NCBI RefSeq assembly: GCF_038397735.1
Contig: NZ_CP151635.1
Span: 2,976,001-3,040,000 of the forward strand
DNA from: Microbacterium sp. LWH13-1.2
Lineage (GTDB): Bacteria; Actinomycetota; Actinomycetes; Actinomycetales; Microbacteriaceae
Length of the DNA stretch: 64,000 nucleotides
Direction of reading: 5' to 3'
Every line of letters starts with the position of its first letter. Positions within the stretch are counted from its first letter, which is position 1. The notes under the pieces were generated by a model. That model was not told the DNA's origin and ran no database searches. It saw only the letters and a list, made by a program, of their open reading frames with translations. This document shows positions 40,619 to 62,317 of this stretch, piece by piece. The position numbers were made by a program, and so were the translations under genes.

Positions 40619-41278
40619 TCAGCCCGCGTATCTCCGGCACCACTCGTACATGATCACGGCGGCCGCCGCGCTTGCGTTGATCGACCGCGTCGAGCCGTAC
40701 TGGGTGATCTCGATATGGGCGGATGCCGCGGCGAGCGCCGCATCCGAGAGCCCCGGCCCCTCCTGCCCGAACATCAGCACGCAGGTCTGCGGCAGCTCGG
40801 CGCGATCCACGGGCACGGCGCCGTCGACGTTGTCGACGGCGATGATCGGGATGCCTTCGGCAGCCGCCCATTCGGCGAACGTCTCGACATCCTCGTGGTG
40901 CACGACGTGCTGGTACCGGTCGGTGACCATGGCACCGCGCTTGTTCCAGCGGCGGCGGCCGATGATGTGCACGGTATCGGCGAGGAACGCGTTGGCGCTG
41001 CGCACGATCGACCCGATGTTCATGTCGTGCTGCCAGTTCTCGATCGCGACGTGGAACGGATGCCGCTGCGTGTCGAGGTCGGCGACGATCGCCTCCATCC
41101 GCCAGTAGCGGTAGCGATCGATCACGTTGCGCGTGTCACCCGCCGCAAGCAGCTCGGGATCGTACTGCTCGCCCTCCGGCCACTCCGATTCACCCCCGGG
41201 CCACGGCCCCACCCCGTATCCGGGCTGCGCCGACGATCCACCTGTCTCCGCTGCCGCCGCGGGTGCCTGCTCATCCAT
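40619..41278 (-). CDS. TrmH/SpoU-family RNA 2'-O-methyltransferase
   Basis: The 219-residue protein has a disordered N-terminus of about 35 residues and then a SPOUT fold. The three motifs are NWQHDMNIGSIVRSANAF, LMFGQEGPGLSDAAL and YGSTRSINASAAAAVIMYEW. The catalytic-type Arg in motif 1 is present. Target RNA (tRNA or rRNA) is unknown. TAGCCT lies six bases before the ATG. Confidence 0.9.
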   Translation of the reverse strand: MDEQAPAAAAETGGSSAQPGYGVGPWPGGESEWPEGEQYDPELLAAGDTRNVIDRYRYWRMEAIVADLDTQRHPFHVAIENWQHDMNIGSIVRSANAFLADTVHIIGRRRWNKRGAMVTDRYQHVVHHEDVETFAEWAAAEGIPIIAVDNVDGAVPVDRAELPQTCVLMFGQEGPGLSDAALAAASAHIEITQYGSTRSINASAAAAVIMYEWCRRYAG

Positions 41279-54381: not shown

Positions 54382-55560
54382 TCAAGGGGTCCATCGACGA
54401 CGCCGAAGACCCAGCAGCGCGAGCACGCCCGCGCCGGCCGTGAGGGCTGCGACGACCCCGAGACCCAAGCCCGGGACGGATGCCGTCGCCACGGCGCCCG
54501 CGACGAGCGGACCGCCCGCGTCCCCGAGCTCCCGCCCCAACTCGGCGCTGCCCATGGTGCGCCCCATGCGCTCAGGCGGTGTGGTCGCTGCGAGGTGCGA
54601 GAACGCGATCGGCGTCGCGATGCCGACCCCGACGCCGACCAGCAGCGCGGTGGCGACGAGCGCGACCGGCACCTGCGTCACCGCGGCGAGCGCGATCCCC
54701 GCGGCGATCACGAGCAGCCCGCCGACTGTGCCGAGCCGCACCGAGATGCGACCCCGATCGTGTGCGCCACCGACGAAAGGCTGAGCGACGCTCGATGCGA
54801 TGGCGAGCACGGTCACTATCGCCATGCTCCCCACGGTGTCGAGCCCGGCCTGGCGGCCGAGCAGCGGCAGGAAGCCGACCGCGACCGCGAGCGCCCCGGT
54901 CGTCGCGGCCAGCACCAGAGTGGGGACGAGGAAGCCGGGGGCAGCGAGCTCTCGCGCCAGATCGACGAGGGTCACACGCGTGCGCGGCAGCACCGTCACC
55001 GCGGGAATCGCCAGGGCGACCCACGCTGCGGCGGCGAGTCCGAGCACCGCGAGCGCCCAGAACAGCGCCGGCATGCCACCCCAGACCACGAGCACCGCCC
55101 CGATCAGCGGGCCGAGCGCGTAGCCGAGGCTCTTCCACGAGCCGTAGCGACCGAAGTACTTCCCCCGCGTGGCATCGTCGGTGAGCCGGGCGACCGCGGC
55201 AGATGACGAGGGCGAGAAGGCGGATGCCGCGGCACCCTGACCGAGCCGGCCGATCACGAGCCCGAGCATCCCCGGCACGACGGCCCCGACCGCCGAGAAC
55301 GCCGAGAACGCGAGAAGCCCTCCGATGATCACGGGGCGCACGCCGATGCGGTCGCTCAGCGCACCGAACAGCGGCTTGAGCAGCACCTCGGCGAGGTCGT
55401 ACAGCGCGAGGGTCAGGCCGAACGCGAGCAGTGTCCAGCCGATGTCCTCGGTCTCGGCACCGAGGGCGGCGGCGATGCCGTGCGCGCCGAACGCGGTGGT
55501 GAAGCCGGCGAGATAGAGCGGGGCGAGCCGGGGCGTCGCGAGCGGCGGGGTCGAGGTCAC
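54382..55560 (-). CDS. MFS efflux transporter (12 helices, DHA1-type)
   Basis: The 392-residue protein has about 12 helices with the loop motif GALSDRIGVRPVII after helix 2 and a second loop DRGRISVRL. It probably exports a drug or metabolite. GGGAG lies eight bases before the GTG start. It is divergent from a histidine-kinase gene, and the palindrome at 55623-55644 lies between them and may affect both. Confidence 0.9.
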   Translation of the reverse strand: MTSTPPLATPRLAPLYLAGFTTAFGAHGIAAALGAETEDIGWTLLAFGLTLALYDLAEVLLKPLFGALSDRIGVRPVIIGGLLAFSAFSAVGAVVPGMLGLVIGRLGQGAAASAFSPSSSAAVARLTDDATRGKYFGRYGSWKSLGYALGPLIGAVLVVWGGMPALFWALAVLGLAAAAWVALAIPAVTVLPRTRVTLVDLARELAAPGFLVPTLVLAATTGALAVAVGFLPLLGRQAGLDTVGSMAIVTVLAIASSVAQPFVGGAHDRGRISVRLGTVGGLLVIAAGIALAAVTQVPVALVATALLVGVGVGIATPIAFSHLAATTPPERMGRTMGSAELGRELGDAGGPLVAGAVATASVPGLGLGVVAALTAGAGVLALLGLRRRRWTP

Positions 55561-55610: not shown

Positions 55611-55663
55611 GATCCCCCGTGCGGGGGATGCCGCGGCATCCCCCTTCGATCTACGGTGGGGGA
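55611..55663 (+). promoter_or_regulatory. Kinase promoter with 22-bp palindrome, candidate two-component operator
   Basis: A perfect palindrome (55623-55644) has half-sites GGGGGATGCCG and CGGCATCCCCC. A third half-site ATCCCCC lies just upstream (55612-55618) and pairs with GGGGGAT as an inverted repeat across GTGC. The palindrome is centred 30.5 bases before the start codon. The -10 TACGGT (55652-55657) lies six bases before the ATG. The same half-site at the same distance occurs before the NatA-like gene. Confidence 0.75.
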
Positions 55664-57004
55664 ATGCCCGCAGCGCCGTTCACCCGCACGCCCAGTGCCC
55701 GCGAGCAGCGCAGCGACCTCATCCTCGCCGCCGTGATGTTCGTGGGCGCGGTGCTGAGCGCCGCCCTCTCGACGATCGCTGAGATCTACGGAGACACCAG
55801 GGCTGAGCCCTGGACCGCACTCCTCTACGCGGTCGCCGTGACCGTGCCGCTCGCCGTGAGACGCCGCTGGCCCGCCCAGGTCGCGATCGCGATCTGCGTC
55901 GCCTACTTCCTCGCGATCTCCTTCCAGGTGCCCGAGATCTACGTCGGCAACATCGCCATGTTCGTGTCGCTGTACACGGTGGGCGCGTGGATGAACAACC
56001 GCAGAGCCGCGATGATCGTGCGCGTCTCGATCATCGTCGGCATGTTCGTCTGGCTCATCATCACGATGTACCGCCAGGCGATCGAGGAGGCCGACAAGGC
56101 CGAGGTCGCAGCCGGCCTGCTCTCGCCCTATCTGGCCTTCATGCTCATCCAGCTGCTGCTGAATGTCCTCTACTTCGGCGGCGCGTACTACTTCGGCGAG
56201 CGCTCGTGGCATGCCGCGCAGGAGCGTCAGGTGCTCGAACAGCGCACGGCCGAGCTCGAGCGGGAGCGCGAGGTGACAGCCGCTCAAGCCGTCGCCCTCG
56301 ACCGCGTGCGCATCGCCCGTGAGCTGCACGACGTGGTCGCCCATCACGTGTCGGTCATGGGCGTGCAGGCGGGCGCCGCTCGTCTCGTGATCGACCAGGA
56401 TCCGGAGAAGTCCAAGAGCATCCTGACCGGCATCGAAGGGTCGGCGCGCGACGCCATCCACGAGCTCCGGCAGCTGCTCGAGACCCTGCGCTCCCCCGGC
56501 AGCGAGGCACCGGATGCCGCGTCGACCGTGACCCTCGACGACATCCGCTCGCTGGTCGAGGCGTCGGTCGAGGCGGGGCTCCCCACCGACTACGCGGTGA
56601 TCGGCGAACCGGTCGCCGTGCCGTCGGTCGTCGCCGTGAACCTCTATCGGATCACGCAGGAGTCGCTCACGAACGCTCGCCGTCACGCCGGAGTCGGTGC
56701 CACCGCCGACGTCCGTGTGCGCTACGACGGCGATGGGGTCGAGGTCGAGGTCGTCAACACCGGCCGAGCGATCGCCGTGCTGCGGCCGGGTCTGGGTCAG
56801 CTCGGCATGCGCGAGCGGGCCGCGGCGTCGGGCGGCACCCTCGAGGTGGCACCTCGCCCCTCGGGCGGGCTGCGCGTGCGCGCCCGCGTGCCCCTGACAG
56901 GCACAGCCCCGCAGACCGGCACAGCCCCGCAGACCGGCACAGCCCCACGGACCGGCACAGCCCCGCAGACCGACCAGCAGACCGAGACGAGCCCCGCCTC
57001 ATGA
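55664..57004 (+). CDS. Two-component sensor histidine kinase (HisKA_3)
   Basis: The 446-residue protein has about five to six transmembrane helices (about 20-180) with little extracellular sequence. A coiled linker follows, then HisKA_3 with RIARELHDVVAHHVSVMG (His about 222) and an ATPase domain (NLYRITQESLTNARRHA and LGQLGMRERAAASGG). The last residues form four 6-residue repeats of Gly-Thr-Ala-Pro-(Gln/Arg)-Thr. Kinases with such membrane-only sensors often respond to envelope stress. The start is fixed by TACGGT six bases upstream; the response regulator gene overlaps by four bases. Confidence 0.93.
   Translation: MPAAPFTRTPSAREQRSDLILAAVMFVGAVLSAALSTIAEIYGDTRAEPWTALLYAVAVTVPLAVRRRWPAQVAIAICVAYFLAISFQVPEIYVGNIAMFVSLYTVGAWMNNRRAAMIVRVSIIVGMFVWLIITMYRQAIEEADKAEVAAGLLSPYLAFMLIQLLLNVLYFGGAYYFGERSWHAAQERQVLEQRTAELEREREVTAAQAVALDRVRIARELHDVVAHHVSVMGVQAGAARLVIDQDPEKSKSILTGIEGSARDAIHELRQLLETLRSPGSEAPDAASTVTLDDIRSLVEASVEAGLPTDYAVIGEPVAVPSVVAVNLYRITQESLTNARRHAGVGATADVRVRYDGDGVEVEVVNTGRAIAVLRPGLGQLGMRERAAASGGTLEVAPRPSGGLRVRARVPLTGTAPQTGTAPQTGTAPRTGTAPQTDQQTETSPAS
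56900..56971 (+). repeat. Four 18-bp tandem repeats in the kinase C-terminus
   Basis: GGCACAGCCCCGCAGACC repeats at 56900, 56918, 56936 (two changes) and 56954, encoding Gly-Thr-Ala-Pro-(Gln/Arg)-Thr. It lies after the ATPase domain, so copy-number change would be silent for catalysis. Confidence 0.95.
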
Positions 57005-57735
57005 CCACGCCCACGCCCGCGCCCGCATCCACGCCTCCGATCCGCGTGCTTCTCGTCGACGACCATGCGATGCTGCGTGCCGGATTCCGGACGATCCTCG
57101 ACACCCAGCCCGACATCACGGTGGTCGGCGAGGCGGCGACCGGCGCCTCGGCCCTGGCGCAGGCATCCGCGCTGCTCCCCGACGTGATCACCATGGACGT
57201 GCAGATGCCCGACATGGACGGCATCGAAGCGACCAGGCGGATCGTCGCCGACCCCGCGATCGCCGCGGCCATCGCGATCGTCACGACGTTCGACCGGGAC
57301 GACTACCTCTATCAGGCGCTGGATGCCGGAGCGAGCGGCTTCCTGCTCAAGAACGCCGGCGCCGAGGACCTCATCGCCGCAGTCCGCGCACTCGCGGCGG
57401 GCGACGGGATGCTGGCGCCCGAAGTCACGCGCAGGGTGCTCGCGCGGTTCGCCCACACTCCCGCGCCCGCGGCCACACCCGCATCCGCATCCGCACCGGC
57501 ATCCGGCCCTGTGGTCGACTCCTCCGCGCCGGTGACGCTCGTCGACCCGCTCACCGACCGCGAGGCCGAGGTGCTCGTGCTGCTCGCGGACGCCCGCAGC
57601 AACGCCGAGATCGCGAGCGCGCTGTTCATCGGCGAAGCCACCGTGAAGACCCACGTCTCACGTGTGCTGCAGAAGCTCGGTGCCAGAGACCGCGTGCAGG
57701 CGGTCGTGCTGGCGCACCGCATGGGACTGGCATAA
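57001..57735 (+). CDS. NarL/LuxR-family response regulator
   Basis: The 244-residue protein has a receiver domain with phosphoacceptor Asp66 (DVITMDVQMPDMDG) and conserved VLLVDDHAML. A Pro/Ala/Ser-rich linker of about 25 residues follows (150-175), longer than usual. The HTH is LTDREAEVLVLLADARSN and EIASALFIGEATVKTHVSR. Its ATG overlaps the kinase stop (ATGA). It probably binds the palindrome before the kinase gene and the matching site before the ABC exporter. Confidence 0.93.
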   Translation: MTTPTPAPASTPPIRVLLVDDHAMLRAGFRTILDTQPDITVVGEAATGASALAQASALLPDVITMDVQMPDMDGIEATRRIVADPAIAAAIAIVTTFDRDDYLYQALDAGASGFLLKNAGAEDLIAAVRALAAGDGMLAPEVTRRVLARFAHTPAPAATPASASAPASGPVVDSSAPVTLVDPLTDREAEVLVLLADARSNAEIASALFIGEATVKTHVSRVLQKLGARDRVQAVVLAHRMGLA

Positions 57736-57788
57736 CCGCGACTGCACCGGCCACCGCAACTCCGACCCAGCCCCGATACCCTCAGAGG

Positions 57789-58961
57789 ATGCCGACCGCC
57801 GCGCCCCTCTCCCGACCGATCCTGGCCGGGATCGTCACCGCGCTGGTCGGATTCACGAGCTCGTTCGCCGTCGTGCTCACGGGCCTCAGCGCGGTCGGCG
57901 CGACACCGGAGCAGGCCGCCAGCGGACTGCTCGCGGTCAGCCTCACGATGGGGCTCGCCTGCGTCGTGCTCGCCTGGCGGTATCGGATGCCGATCACCGT
58001 CGCCTGGTCGACTCCCGGCGCCGCGCTGCTCGCCGCGACCGGCGTCGTCGAGGGAGGCTGGTCGGCGGCCGTCGGCGCGTTCCTCGTCGCAGCGGCGCTG
58101 ATCCTGCTCACGGCGCTGTGGCCCGCGCTGGGCGCGCTGATCGCGCGCATCCCTCCGTCCATCGCGCAGGCGATGCTCGCCGGCGTTCTGCTGCCGCTGT
58201 GCCTCGCTCCGATCACCGGACTCGTCACCAATCCGTGGGGCGTGATCCCGATCGTGCTGACCTGGCTGGTCTTCGCCCGTCTCGCACCGCGATGGGCGGT
58301 TCCGCTCGCATTCCTCGCAGCGACCGTCGTGGTCACCGTCTCGCTCGTCCAGGAGGGCGCTCCGGTCGACGCCGGCCTGCTGGTCCCCCGCTTCGAACTC
58401 ACCGCACCGACCTTCACGCTCGGCGCCATGATCGGTGTCGCTCTGCCGCTGTTCATCGTCACGATGGCGTCGCAGAACGTGCCGGGCATCGCGATCATGC
58501 GCAGCTTCGGCTACGAGGTTCCGTGGCGCCCCGCCATGCTCGTCACCGGTCTCGGCACCGCGCTCGGCGCCACGGCCGGGGGCCACGCGATCAACCTCGC
58601 GGCGATCAGCGCCGCGCTCGCGGCCTCCCCCGACGCCGACCCCGACCCGAAGCGGCGCTGGGTGGCCGGCGTCTCGACCGGGGCCTCGTATCTCGTGCTC
58701 GGCGGGTTCTCCGCCGCATTCGCCGCGCTCGTGCTCCTCGCACCCGACGCCGTGATCCCCGCGGTCGCCGGGCTCGCGCTGTTCGGAGCGTTCGGTGCAT
58801 CGGTGCAGCAGGCGATCGACGACCCCGGCGAGCGCATCCCCGCCGTCGTCACTTTCCTGGTGGCGGCATCGGGCATCTCGCTGCTGGGCGTGAGCGCCGC
58901 GTTCTGGGCGCTCGTCGCCGGTCTCCTCGTGCGCACAGTGCTGCACGCCGGGCGGCGCTGA
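57789..58961 (+). CDS. BenE-family benzoate/H+ symporter-like transporter
   Basis: The 390-residue membrane protein has about 11-12 helices with GIVTALVGFTSSFAVVLTGL at the start and ASQNVPGIAIMRSFGYEVPWRP, typical of BenE. Family members import benzoate, but purine-like substrates are known for related groups. No benzoate catabolic gene is near. TACCCT lies exactly six bases before the ATG. Confidence 0.9.
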   Translation: MPTAAPLSRPILAGIVTALVGFTSSFAVVLTGLSAVGATPEQAASGLLAVSLTMGLACVVLAWRYRMPITVAWSTPGAALLAATGVVEGGWSAAVGAFLVAAALILLTALWPALGALIARIPPSIAQAMLAGVLLPLCLAPITGLVTNPWGVIPIVLTWLVFARLAPRWAVPLAFLAATVVVTVSLVQEGAPVDAGLLVPRFELTAPTFTLGAMIGVALPLFIVTMASQNVPGIAIMRSFGYEVPWRPAMLVTGLGTALGATAGGHAINLAAISAALAASPDADPDPKRRWVAGVSTGASYLVLGGFSAAFAALVLLAPDAVIPAVAGLALFGAFGASVQQAIDDPGERIPAVVTFLVAASGISLLGVSAAFWALVAGLLVRTVLHAGRR

Positions 58962-58995
58962 GCCCTCTGCCGATCGGCTCGGCTAGCGTGGGGGC

Positions 58996-60201
58996 GTGAC
59001 CGTTCCCGCACCAGCGCCCGTCCCTTCAGCCGGCACTCCCGCCGGTCACTTCGACGCCCGCGCGCTGCTCGAGCCGGTGAACCCCGCCGAGGTCGACGCG
59101 TTCGCCCGTGCCCAGCGCGCCGCCAATCGCTCCTCCGCCGGGCAGATCGTCGCGTGGGTGGCTGTGGGGTTCGCCGCGCTGTGCGTGGTGCCCGTCATCG
59201 GGATCATGATCCTGGGCCTCGGGTACACGATCGGGCGCGGCACCGGGGTCGCGGTCGCCGGGCTCCTCGCCCTGCTGCTGTTCGCGGGGCTCACCCTGGG
59301 AATCGTGATGCTCGTGCGTCGAGGCATCCGCACGCGCAATCTGACACGATTCCGCCTCGCGCGCTTCGCCGGAGCGAACGCGATGAGCTACTTCGAACGG
59401 ATCGACGACCCGCCTCTGCCGGGGATGATCTTCTCGAGCGGATCGAGCCGGATGTCGACCGACGTGCTCCGAGGGGTCGCACCCCGGTTCGTCGAGTTCG
59501 GCAACTATCAGTACACGACGAGCAACGGCAAGCAGTCGCAGACGCACCGCTGGGGCTACGTCGCCGTCAAGCTCGACGTCCCCCTGCCGAACATCGTGCT
59601 CGACGCACTCGGCAACAACACCCTCGGCAGCACCGTCGCCGGCGCGTTCAGCGGCGATCAGCGACTCTCGCTCGAGGGTGACTTCGACCGGTACTTCTCG
59701 CTGTTCTGCCCTGCGGGCTACGAGGTCGACGCCCTCTACCTCTTCACGCCCGACGTCATGGCGCGCTTCATCGATCATGCCGCGCAGCTCGATGTCGAGA
59801 TCGTCGACGACTGGCTCTTCCTCTACGCACGCCGCGAGGTGTCGACGCTCGACCCGGCGACCTGGGCGTGGCTGTTCGGAGCGGTCGGTGCGCTGCTGAC
59901 GAAGCTCGACCAGTGGGCGCGCTGGCGCGACGACCGGCTGCGGCTGTCCGCGCCCGTCGCGCAGCATCCGCCCCTCCCCGCCGACGGGGCCGCGGCCCCG
60001 GTGCCCGCGGGATCCCCCGCGCTGCCGTTCGCGGCTCCGCAGGGTCTGCTCACCCCTCCTCCTCCCGGCGTCGCCCCTCCCGGTCAGCGCCTCAAGCGAC
60101 GAAGCCCGTGGCTGATCGTCGGCATCATCGTCGGGGTCATGCTCGTGGTGACCATGGCCCCGTTCGCGATCGGCATCTTCTCGTTCCTGTTCCTGGGCTG
60201 A
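58996..60201 (+). CDS. Membrane protein of unknown function with C-terminal Pro-rich linker
   Basis: The 401-residue protein has two adjacent helices (about 46-70 and 74-102). A soluble domain of about 200 residues follows (for example SYFERIDDPPLPGMIFSSG and FDRYFSLFCPAGYEVDALY), then a Pro/Ala-rich linker (310-365) and a final helix (372-398). I do not recognise a characterised family. TAGCGT is exactly six bases before the GTG. It precedes the natAB-like pair by 116 bases, but that pair has its own operator. Confidence 0.72.
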   Translation: MTVPAPAPVPSAGTPAGHFDARALLEPVNPAEVDAFARAQRAANRSSAGQIVAWVAVGFAALCVVPVIGIMILGLGYTIGRGTGVAVAGLLALLLFAGLTLGIVMLVRRGIRTRNLTRFRLARFAGANAMSYFERIDDPPLPGMIFSSGSSRMSTDVLRGVAPRFVEFGNYQYTTSNGKQSQTHRWGYVAVKLDVPLPNIVLDALGNNTLGSTVAGAFSGDQRLSLEGDFDRYFSLFCPAGYEVDALYLFTPDVMARFIDHAAQLDVEIVDDWLFLYARREVSTLDPATWAWLFGAVGALLTKLDQWARWRDDRLRLSAPVAQHPPLPADGAAAPVPAGSPALPFAAPQGLLTPPPPGVAPPGQRLKRRSPWLIVGIIVGVMLVVTMAPFAIGIFSFLFLG

Positions 60202-60251
60202 GTCGGGAAGCTCCCCCGCACGGCGGACGAGCACGACCTCGGGTGCGTGCA

Positions 60252-60317
60252 GATCCCCCGCACAGATCCGCCACAGGGGGGATGCCGCGGTGACGCGCCC
60301 GGCCATAGCGTGAGCGT
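60252..60317 (+). promoter_or_regulatory. natAB-like promoter carrying the kinase-promoter motif
   Basis: GGGGGATGCCGCGG (60277-60290) matches the left half and centre of the kinase-promoter palindrome, with its equivalent centre again 30.5 bases before the start codon. GATCCCCCG (60252-60260) is also shared. The -10 TAGCGT (60306-60311) is six bases before the ATG. Confidence 0.7.
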
Positions 60318-61214
60318 ATGACCACAGGAAAGCTCGTACTGAGCGGCATCACCAAGAGCTACGGCTCGCGGCGCGTGCTCGACGACGTCTCGTTCGAGGT
60401 GGCCCCCGGGCGTCTCACCGGGTTCGTCGGCGGCAACGGCGCAGGCAAGACCACGACCATGCGGATCGTCCTCGGGCTGCTCGGCTCCGATGGCGGCCGT
60501 GTCGAACTCGACGGCACGGCGCTCACCAGCGCCGACCGCCGCCACTTCGGCTACATGCCCGAGGAGCGTGGCCTGTACCCCAAGATGAAGGTGCTCGAGC
60601 AGATCGTGTACCTCGCCCGACTGCACGGGATGAGCAAGGCGGATGCCACGGCACGGGCGACCGCGCTGCTCACCGAGCTGGGACTCGAGGAGCGCCTCGG
60701 CGACACGATCGAGTCGCTGTCGCTCGGCAACCAGCAGCGCGCGCAGATCGCGGCAGCCCTCGTGCACGACCCCGAGGTGCTGATCCTCGACGAGCCGTTC
60801 TCGGGCCTCGACCCGCTCGCGGTCGACGTCGTGGCGTCGGTGCTGCAGTCATCTGCCGCGAAGGGTGCCTCGATCCTGTTCTCCTCGCATCAGCTCGACG
60901 TCGTCGAACGGTTGTGCGACGACCTGGTGATCCTCGCCGCGGGGACCATCCGCGCGTCCGGTTCCCGCGACGCGCTCCGCGCGCAGCACGCCGGCAGCCG
61001 GTACGAGCTGGTCTCCGCCGGGGACGCCGGGTGGCTGAGGGCCGAGCCGGGCATCACCGTCCTCGACTTCGAGGGCGGCTACGCCCTGTTCGACGCAGAC
61101 GACGCCGAGGTCGCCCAGCGTGTGCTGCGCACCGCCGTCGAACGCGGCGACGTGGCGAGCTTCGCCCCCAAGCATCCCTCTCTCGCCCAGATCTTCAAGG
61201 AGGTCATCCAGTGA
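60318..61214 (+). CDS. ABC-2 exporter ATPase (NatA-like)
   Basis: The 298-residue ATPase has Walker A GGNGAGKTTTMRIVLG near residues 38-53, the signature LSLGNQQRAQIAAAL and Walker B VLILDEPFSGLDP. A C-terminal DUF4162-like region follows. It pairs with the next gene, the permease. Family members export sodium, drugs or peptides. TAGCGT is six bases before the ATG, and the promoter shares the two-component operator. The permease start overlaps by four bases. Confidence 0.92.
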   Translation: MTTGKLVLSGITKSYGSRRVLDDVSFEVAPGRLTGFVGGNGAGKTTTMRIVLGLLGSDGGRVELDGTALTSADRRHFGYMPEERGLYPKMKVLEQIVYLARLHGMSKADATARATALLTELGLEERLGDTIESLSLGNQQRAQIAAALVHDPEVLILDEPFSGLDPLAVDVVASVLQSSAAKGASILFSSHQLDVVERLCDDLVILAAGTIRASGSRDALRAQHAGSRYELVSAGDAGWLRAEPGITVLDFEGGYALFDADDAEVAQRVLRTAVERGDVASFAPKHPSLAQIFKEVIQ

Positions 61215-62317
61215 GCACCTCGAACAGCACCGGAACTGCCGGCACGAGCTCGCAGGCCTCGATGATCTGGCTCGTCGCCGAGCGGGAGATCGGCTCGAAG
61301 CTGCGCAGCAAGGCGTTCCTGATCTCGACGGGCGTCCTGCTGCTCATCGCGCTGGCCGGCATCGTGCTCGGCGGCTTCGCGAGCAAGAACACCGATGCGA
61401 TGCCAGTGGCCGTGACCTCCGAGACGGCATCCCTCGTGTCTGCCCTGCCCGACACCGAGATCACCGAGGTGTCGGATCAGGCGGCAGCCGAGCAGCTGCT
61501 GCGCGACGAGAAGGTCGATGCTGCGGTCCTGCCGGGCGACGGTCCGACCGGCGTCACGGTCGTCGCGCTCAAGGACGCCCCGACGAGTCTCGTGTCGGCG
61601 CTGTCGCAATCCCCGACGGTCGAGATCCTCGAACCCGCGACGACCAACCCGCTGCTGCGCTACTTCATCGCGATCGCGTTCGGCATCGTGTTCATGGGAG
61701 CTGCCGCGACGTTCGGCGGCACGATCGCCCAGAGCATCGTCGAGGAGAAGCAGACGCGCGTCGTCGAGATCCTGCTGTCGACCATCTCGGCGCGCACGCT
61801 GCTCGCCGGCAAGGTGATCGGCAACACGATCCTCGCGATGGGGCAGATCCTCGCCCTGGCCGCGGTCGCGACGATAGGACTCATAGCGACGGGTCAGCGC
61901 GAGGTGCTGTCGACGCTCGGCGCCCCGATCATCTGGTTCGCGGTGTTCTTCCTGTTCGGGTTCATCCTGCTCGCGGCGCTCTTCGCCGCAGCGGCGTCCA
62001 TGGTCTCCCGCCAGGAGGACATCGGCTCGACGACGACCCCGATCACGATGCTGATCATGGCGCCGTACGTGCTCGTGATCATCTTCAACGACAATCCGCT
62101 GGTGCTGACGATCATGTCGTACGTGCCGTTCTCGGCTCCGGTCGGTATGCCGATGCGACTGTTCGTGGGCGAGGCGCAGTGGTGGGAGCCGTTGCTGAGC
62201 CTGGTGATCCTGCTCGTGAGCTGCGTCGCCGCGATCGTGGTCGGCGCGAAGATCTACGAGAACTCGCTGCTGCGCATGGGCTCGCGGGTGAAGCTCGGCG
62301 AGGCGCTGCGCGGCTGA
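61211..62317 (+). CDS. ABC-2 exporter permease (NatB-like)
   Basis: The 368-residue permease starts MSTSNSTGTAGTSSQASMIW and has a helix at about 38-58. An extracytoplasmic domain of about 120 residues follows, and then five to six helices beginning PLLRYFIAIAFGIVFMGAAA. The cytoplasmic element SIVEEKQTRVVEILLSTIS is the conserved ABC-2 coupling segment. GTGA overlaps the ATPase stop. With the ATPase it forms a two-gene exporter under the shared operator. Confidence 0.92.
   Translation: MSTSNSTGTAGTSSQASMIWLVAEREIGSKLRSKAFLISTGVLLLIALAGIVLGGFASKNTDAMPVAVTSETASLVSALPDTEITEVSDQAAAEQLLRDEKVDAAVLPGDGPTGVTVVALKDAPTSLVSALSQSPTVEILEPATTNPLLRYFIAIAFGIVFMGAAATFGGTIAQSIVEEKQTRVVEILLSTISARTLLAGKVIGNTILAMGQILALAAVATIGLIATGQREVLSTLGAPIIWFAVFFLFGFILLAALFAAAASMVSRQEDIGSTTTPITMLIMAPYVLVIIFNDNPLVLTIMSYVPFSAPVGMPMRLFVGEAQWWEPLLSLVILLVSCVAAIVVGAKIYENSLLRMGSRVKLGEALRG

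Follow-up and report, generated by a model that had tools for sequence, protein, structure and literature searches.

We analysed a 64,000-nucleotide stretch of the genome of Microbacterium sp. LWH13-1.2 (the window; positions 2976001-3040000 of 3771418 bases), in which a sensor histidine kinase and a NarL/LuxR-type response regulator form an operon upstream of a NatAB-like ATP-binding cassette (ABC) exporter. The promoters of the kinase and of the exporter carry the same dyad of 18 base pairs (bp), at the same distance from the start codon, and related genomes have it before the same genes. Very probably, an autoregulated NarL-class pair activates its own operon, the exporter and a regulon of membrane proteins through this dyad, a reading built on the comparison of sequences.

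Anatomy of the two promoters

Counting the ATG as +1, both promoters have the dyad at -52 to -35, the hexamer ATGCCG at -36 to -31, and TACGGT or TAGCGT at -12 to -7 (Table 1). The original prediction had pointed to a perfect 22-bp palindrome before the kinase, to the recurrence of GGGGGATGCCGCGG before the exporter (60277-60290), and to a -10 element six bases before both starts; all of these are present, the last as TANNNT hexamers. Its geometry did not survive. It placed the centre 30.5 bases before the starts, with the palindrome covering the -35 region, but the true dyad is centred 43.5 bp upstream in both promoters, which in the kinase promoter is 13 bp to the left of the palindrome's centre, and it abuts a poor -35 instead. 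The word GATCCCCCG, said to precede both genes, does so literally, but its kinase copy contains the left half-site, whereas in the exporter promoter the true left half-site is ATCCGCC (60266-60272) and the copy lies 13 bp further upstream.

The conserved unit emerges from 50 orthologous kinase loci taken from named records, which together with the window provide 51 kinase and 43 exporter promoters (at eight loci, the exporter lies beyond the available flank). What is kept upstream of the kinases is TCC.[CT]C, four free bases and G[GA].GGAT, followed by G (50/50), C (44/50) and the -10 element. Compared with the 13 constrained positions of the dyad ATCCNYC-N4-GGGGGAT, 38 of the 50 loci have no mismatch, seven have one and five have two. 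The right arm of the 22-mer, CGGCATCCCCC, is found with at most two mismatches of 11 in only 15/50 related kinase loci, and we rejected the 22-bp palindrome as the operator on this ground. Judged by what the orthologous promoters retain, the conserved unit is the 18-bp dyad and not the 22-mer, which is out of register with it. An RNA hairpin in the leader was also rejected, by reasoning, because the dyad is located upstream of the putative transcription start. Promoters of TANNNT type with a start at the initiation codon are common in actinobacteria, and one survey gives 22% of the genes expressed in exponential M. tuberculosis as leaderless (PMC3898074). The kinase and exporter transcripts would be leaderless too.

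The exporter promoter has a second operator upstream of the main one, which was absent from the original prediction, as was the wider regulon discussed below. Such a second dyad, with at most one mismatch and within 110 bp upstream of the main one, occurs at 34/43 exporter promoters (15/860 in shuffled sequences) and at 1/51 kinase promoters (8/1020). The sites found in the genus genomes, a set that overlaps the 50 loci in species, give 13/27 for exporters (shuffles 9/540), 1/52 for kinases (9/1040) and 1/23 for other genes (7/460). The spacings of the second dyad cluster near 25-27, 35, 42, 46 and 54-56 bp, with single values of 22, 23, 32, 41, 52 and 89, related species being counted together; helical phasing of the exporter operators was considered and is not claimed. 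At some exporter promoters (L005, L022, L023, L024, L027, L028, L050 and their relatives L078, L079, L238), a block like ATGCGATGCACTGAGCGAACGGAG separates the exporter start from the apparent leaderless ATG. This block brings a Shine-Dalgarno-like sequence and, in some cases, a mini reading frame; in L005, part of it is present in three tandem copies. Its appearance is that of an inserted leader, by which a leaderless exporter gene becomes a led one.

Table 1. Features of the kinase-exporter locus (positions in the window)
Feature	Position	Strand	Remarks
Operator of the kinase/regulator operon, ATCCCCCG-TG-CGGGGGAT	55612..55629	+	18-bp dyad, centre 43.5 bp before ATG; kept before kinase orthologues
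22-bp palindrome of the original prediction	55623..55644	+	left arm contains the operator's right half; right arm unconserved
Kinase promoter, putative poor -35-like hexamer ATGCCG	55628..55633	+	2-bp overlap with the operator
Kinase promoter, -10 hexamer TACGGT	55652..55657	+	six bases before ATG; predicted leaderless start
Sensor histidine kinase, DUF7134 + HisKA_3 + HATPase_c	55664..57004	+	five hydrophobic helices (simple hydropathy scan); ATG 55664 is the conserved start
NarL/LuxR-type response regulator	57001..57735	+	nearest solved relatives named VraR
BenE-family transporter	57789..58961	+	between operon and exporter
401-amino-acid protein, three hydrophobic helices	58996..60201	+	between BenE and exporter; in 13/50 loci
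Second, upstream exporter operator, CTCCCCCGCACGGCGGAC	60211..60228	+	55 bp centre-to-centre from main site; 9 bp past the preceding gene's stop codon
Main exporter operator, ATCCGCCA-CA-GGGGGGAT	60266..60283	+	centre 43.5 bp before ATG
Exporter promoter, putative poor -35-like hexamer ATGCCG	60282..60287	+	
Exporter promoter, -10 hexamer TAGCGT	60306..60311	+	six bases before ATG; predicted leaderless start
NatA-like ABC ATPase, ABC_tran + DrrA1-3_C	60318..61214	+	
NatB-like permease, ABC2_membrane_3	61211..62317	+	

Occurrence of the operator in the genome and the genus

The exact operator, ATCCNYC-N4-GGGGGAT with zero mismatches, is found at 2 places in the 3.77-Mb genome, the kinase and exporter promoters only. 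There are 13 other places with one mismatch, none of which has a -10 element at the right distance (by eye). The exact 14-mer GGGGGATGCCGCGG has three places genome-wide, and the third, at genome position 2300003, looks by eye like coding sequence.

The original prediction had set a motif search upstream of orthologues as its test, and conservation was found there: one site common to the two-component operon and the exporter, at equal distance from both starts, is kept in orthologues. By script, a dyad 21 or 22 bp before the -10 element (20-24 allowed) was detected in 49/51 kinase and 41/43 exporter promoters. Where the script missed it, at two kinase (L006, L037) and two exporter promoters (L024, L044), the dyad is visible by eye and the -10 is off-pattern, which brings the exporter promoters with an operator to 43/43, two of them by eye.

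A strict search for the dyad plus -10 in 119 genus genomes gave 104 sites in 74 genomes, and the reversed pattern gave 0 in all of them. Among these sites, 53 precede the kinase, 28 the exporter and 23 other genes, the window's two included. The kinase itself is present in 115/119 genomes. Where its promoter lacks a strict site, 49/59 reach at least 8 bits with the -10 in place (36/45 in one batch, 13/14 in another), using a scoring matrix trained on the 50 kinase loci, some of them from the same genomes as the 59, which are therefore not all independent of the matrix. In total, operator and -10 precede the kinase in 102/112 Microbacterium genomes examined (53 strict and 49 scored), three genomes with partial kinase matches (G051, G091, G097) being excluded from the 115. 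At the same 8 bits with -10, controls gave 0/171 upstream of five neighbouring genes and 0/2950 in shuffled sequences; shuffles preserve base composition only, and related species are not independent.

Conservation beyond the genus

Of 299 Microbacteriaceae genomes, 28 contain the strict pattern, and 5 of these 28 belong to the genus itself. It precedes a kinase orthologue in four other genera (L213, L220, L223, L237), and the remaining 19 other-genus sites precede a different gene or a start that is unclear. In five genomes from a single other genus (L215-L219), the pattern stands before a leaderless gene for a protein with a proline-rich start. Kinase matches with an E-value of 1e-80 or better occur in 66/150 family genomes, 64 of which are outside the genus. 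We scanned the promoters of the 28 best-scoring of these 64 (20 genera, kinases 46-54% identical), and a looser dyad lies 21 or 22 bp before TANNNT in 26/28, with 0 mismatches in 12 constrained positions in 25 of them and 2 in the other (shuffles 3/840).

A wider candidate regulon

The 23 other Microbacterium sites precede genes for nine glycine-zipper membrane proteins (58-98 amino acids), five one-helix proteins (41-55 amino acids, MDIASMIMG...), four GPP34-like proteins and five singletons, which include a CPBP-like and a DUF2207-like protein (both named by eye). The start codon is 6-7 bp past the -10 at 22/23 of these sites, and 22 bp past it at L144. When members of the families were searched back in the 119 genomes, a site of at least 6 bits with a -10 at 21-22 bp was found upstream of 25/30 glycine-zipper genes (30 loci out of a longer list), 13/21 one-helix genes and 10/28 GPP34 genes. 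In a Pfam scan of the small regulon proteins, only GPP34, a known Pfam family, was above cut-off. Membrane proteins with similar starts, CPBP-like by eye, combine the operator with a leaderless start in two genera (L146 and L214) and may be a further regulon member.

The window's own genome gave no match in a search with the glycine-zipper and one-helix families. Upstream of its GPP34 gene (genome positions 3129938-3130546, minus strand), GGGGGAT stands 22 bp ahead of TAGCGT, and the start follows six bases on. The original prediction had described the locus as part of an envelope-stress circuit, and this stands in outline as a membrane or envelope-type system, most other operator-bearing genes in relatives being membrane-like or GPP34. 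It does not stand for the divergent major facilitator superfamily (MFS) pump placed in the circuit: we rejected this gene as a fixed part, an orthologue lying within the available DNA at 22/50 loci only, where some flanks are short.

Which regulator binds, and with what effect

Kinase and regulator would form an autoregulated NarL-class two-component system, near VraR/LiaR and DesKR, whose kinase would sense a disturbance in or at the membrane. The phosphorylated regulator, most likely as a dimer, would bind the dyad TCC[G/C/A][C/T]C-N4-G[G/A][G/C]GGA centred 43.5 bp before the start and, standing beside the poor -35, would recruit RNA polymerase. This is the position expected of a class-II activator, because the centre is at -43.5, abutting the poor -35, and not at -30.5, covering it. 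The pair's own operon would respond through one site and the NatAB-like exporter through the main and the upstream sites, an arrangement that might steepen the response. Elsewhere in the genus, the regulator may also act on the small glycine-zipper proteins, the one-helix protein and the GPP34-like protein, and in the window's own genome the GPP34 gene retains one half-site in place. A membrane stimulus is probable because the kinase has five helices without a large outer domain and most candidate targets resemble membrane proteins.

We infer activation rather than repression. That the same regulator represses both promoters through the dyad, as a brake released by the signal, is unlikely: the dyad does contact the -35 region, and the second site of the exporter might be there for looping or blocking, but the dyad lies mostly upstream of a -35 that is poor in both promoters (ATGCCG), which suits activation. 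LiaR, VraR and DesR, its relatives in the regulator class, are activators, and we count this against repression. The same goes for the finding, in a study of LnrJK, that loss of this pair abolishes induction of the exporter promoter it controls (PMC7472640).

It is quite unlikely that the dyad is bound by a different transcription factor, which would then control all these genes in place of the neighbouring regulator. The genomes have several NarL-type paralogues, at 44-60% identity, and the operator occurs at unlinked genes, as such a factor would allow, but the most constant site is that of the kinase/regulator promoter (102/112 in the genus, 26/28 examined outside), and the exporter operator is missing in two genomes without the pair. 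These two, G003 and G100, are among the four kinase-negative genus genomes (with G039 and G108), none of which has a strict site. They have no close regulator orthologue, their best matches (52% and 59%) being at paralogue level, and they retain NatAB (ATPase 73-75% identical), but the operator is absent upstream of it, the best scores being -3.3 and -16. The G003 exporter promoter still shows, by eye, a TCCGTC half and TAGCGT, and the glycine-zipper gene of G108 lacks the dyad while retaining TAGCGT and the start. The genomes that have the regulator and a partial kinase match (G051, G091, G097) have dyads before the exporter, with scores of 9.6 to 12.3. From these comparisons we infer that the neighbouring regulator is the binder of the dyad, in what would be a case of regulator and operator going missing together. 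Kinase matches that are split or divergent were seen at G083:C1:3140765-3142067, G051:C1 and G097:C4 (L397, L398), where the exporter remains, as does the regulator in G051 and G097.

The composition of the half-sites bears on what kind of element this is. A scan of 96 kinase promoters gave 92 operators, whose left half reads TCCCCC in 31, TCCGCC in 27, TCCGTC in 25, TCCACC in 7 and another word in 2; the right half, on the opposite strand, is TCCCCC in 60, TCCGTC in 15, TCCGCC in 10 and another word in 7. In 21/92, the G-rich half has changed sides (left TCCCCC, right not). We regard the site as of dimer type because both halves come from one set of words and the G-rich one can be on either side. 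That the conserved block is instead the promoter of an alternative sigma factor is very improbable. GGGGATGCC and TASSGT do stand at about -35/-10 spacing in the compared sites, but the left half-site is conserved as a dyad partner drawn from the same word set, the flip of the G-rich half would be unexpected for the -35 element of a sigma factor, and most exporter promoters have a further dyad upstream.

The original prediction had rightly cautioned about word frequency: the window has 51 copies of GGATGCC on one strand and 44 on the other, versus about 9 expected on each, an over-representation of about fivefold (examples at 55219-55232 and 40718-40731). GGATGCCGC has a strand skew of 14 to 6 in the window. 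That the motif is a word due to chance or codon bias, or else a dispersed palindromic repeat, was rejected and keeps practically no probability. The excess of GGATGCC and the recurrence of looser forms of the 22-mer elsewhere in the genome would speak for it, but the exact, shifted operator is unique to two promoters in this genome, the reversed pattern of dyad and -10 element gave 0 in the 119 genus genomes, and the controls for kinase promoters gave 0/171.

Several observations weigh against activation of these genes by the neighbouring regulator. Position alone is no proof of activation, and the dyad might be recognised by a NarL-type paralogue. The kinase-negative set numbers four genomes, including two with a completeness of 44% and 79%, and the strict site is also missing in 41/115 kinase-positive genomes; 10/59 non-strict kinase promoters score below 8 bits. 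In G051 and G097, the best-scoring exporter dyad is off the usual distance to the -10. When the -10 is not required, 38/1958 control stretches reach 10 bits, most of which are presumably explained by exporter promoters crossed by these stretches. In the wider regulon, the site is missing at 5/30 glycine-zipper, 8/21 one-helix and 18/28 GPP34 loci; of the last, 13 resemble other GPP34 types by their start sequence, 3 fall short of the family cut-off and 2 carry a weaker site. Finally, the GPP34 site in the window's own genome has an altered left half, with ATCC displaced by 3 bp.

Genes of the locus

The two-component pair has the NarL/LuxR architecture (HisKA_3 2.1e-20, HATPase_c 4.3e-9, Response_reg 2.3e-26, GerE 1.1e-18), and the exporter has that of NatAB, an ABC ATPase with a DrrA-type C-terminus and one ABC2_membrane_3 permease, the name being given by architecture only. 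The hydropathy scan shows no large outer domain in the kinase. Compared with solved structures, the kinase core is closest to DesK and the regulator to chains named VraR; the same comparison for the permease led nowhere. The window kinase is 93% identical to a kinase named Microbacterium phyllosphaerae, and in the 120 relatives listed the kinase is called, where named, 'sensor histidine kinase', 'signal transduction histidine kinase' or 'histidine kinase'. The C-terminal end of the window kinase (about 56900-56975) has a tandem 18-base repeat (TGTAPQ-type, by eye) that is often uncovered by kinase matches. No operator was found before the intervening BenE gene, and the BenE upstream regions of related loci are within the 171 match-free controls. 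The 401-amino-acid protein has no Pfam or NCBIfam match.

Comparison with known systems

Among membrane-stress systems, MadRS of Enterococcus faecalis is described as a pair acting against antimicrobial peptides. The locus is not a MadRS member because both its proteins are below the curated cut-offs, the regulator with 147 bits on the MadR model (cut-off 300) and the kinase with 73 on the MadS model (cut-off 500). LnrJK of Bacillus subtilis lies beside and controls the ABC transporter LnrLMN, is induced by polyenes and has the LnrLMN operon as LnrK's only reported target (PMC7472640). Both systems encode a two-component pair by an ABC transporter, and here a shared operator is conserved and control is predicted. 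In contrast to LnrJK-LnrLMN, the operator here is also at the kinase operon and, in relatives, at small membrane proteins, and there is one permease gene.

The regulator is nearest to VraR-named solved chains, a likeness to LiaFSR/VraSR; one solved structure, 5hev, is LiaR. LiaFSR/VraSR systems are characterised by autoregulation and small membrane-protein targets. No LiaF-like family, the inhibitor of LiaFSR, was found among the seven proteins scanned. Against the streptococcal LiaS model, the only LiaS model that appeared, the kinase reaches 36 bits (cut-off 450), and it has five hydrophobic helices, whereas LiaS-type kinases have two. DesK-DesR, the membrane thermosensor of B. subtilis, is the nearest for the kinase core and also has membrane helices as its sensor part. 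It differs from the present system, in which the sensor domain is DUF7134 and exact operator sites precede the kinase operon and the exporter, whereas the target of DesR is a fatty-acid desaturase. In actinobacteria, EsrISR of Corynebacterium glutamicum is an envelope-stress two-component system linked to an ABC exporter.

No published description of this system was found in the literature searched, which took in few subscription papers. An autoregulated NarL-class pair with an exporter is a known arrangement, and the family, the operator and the target set appear to be undescribed. What was a coincidence between two promoters becomes a testable regulon in a large bacterial family, with an operator sequence that can be searched in further Microbacteriaceae genomes and with uncharacterised small membrane proteins named as likely effectors. 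On balance, we lean slightly towards a membrane-stress regulon ancestral in a large part of the Microbacteriaceae, in which a five-helix kinase and one leaderless-promoter architecture would govern an exporter, small membrane proteins and GPP34, with a two-site switch at the exporter alone: an actinobacterial counterpart of LiaIH-type systems, with unrelated effectors.

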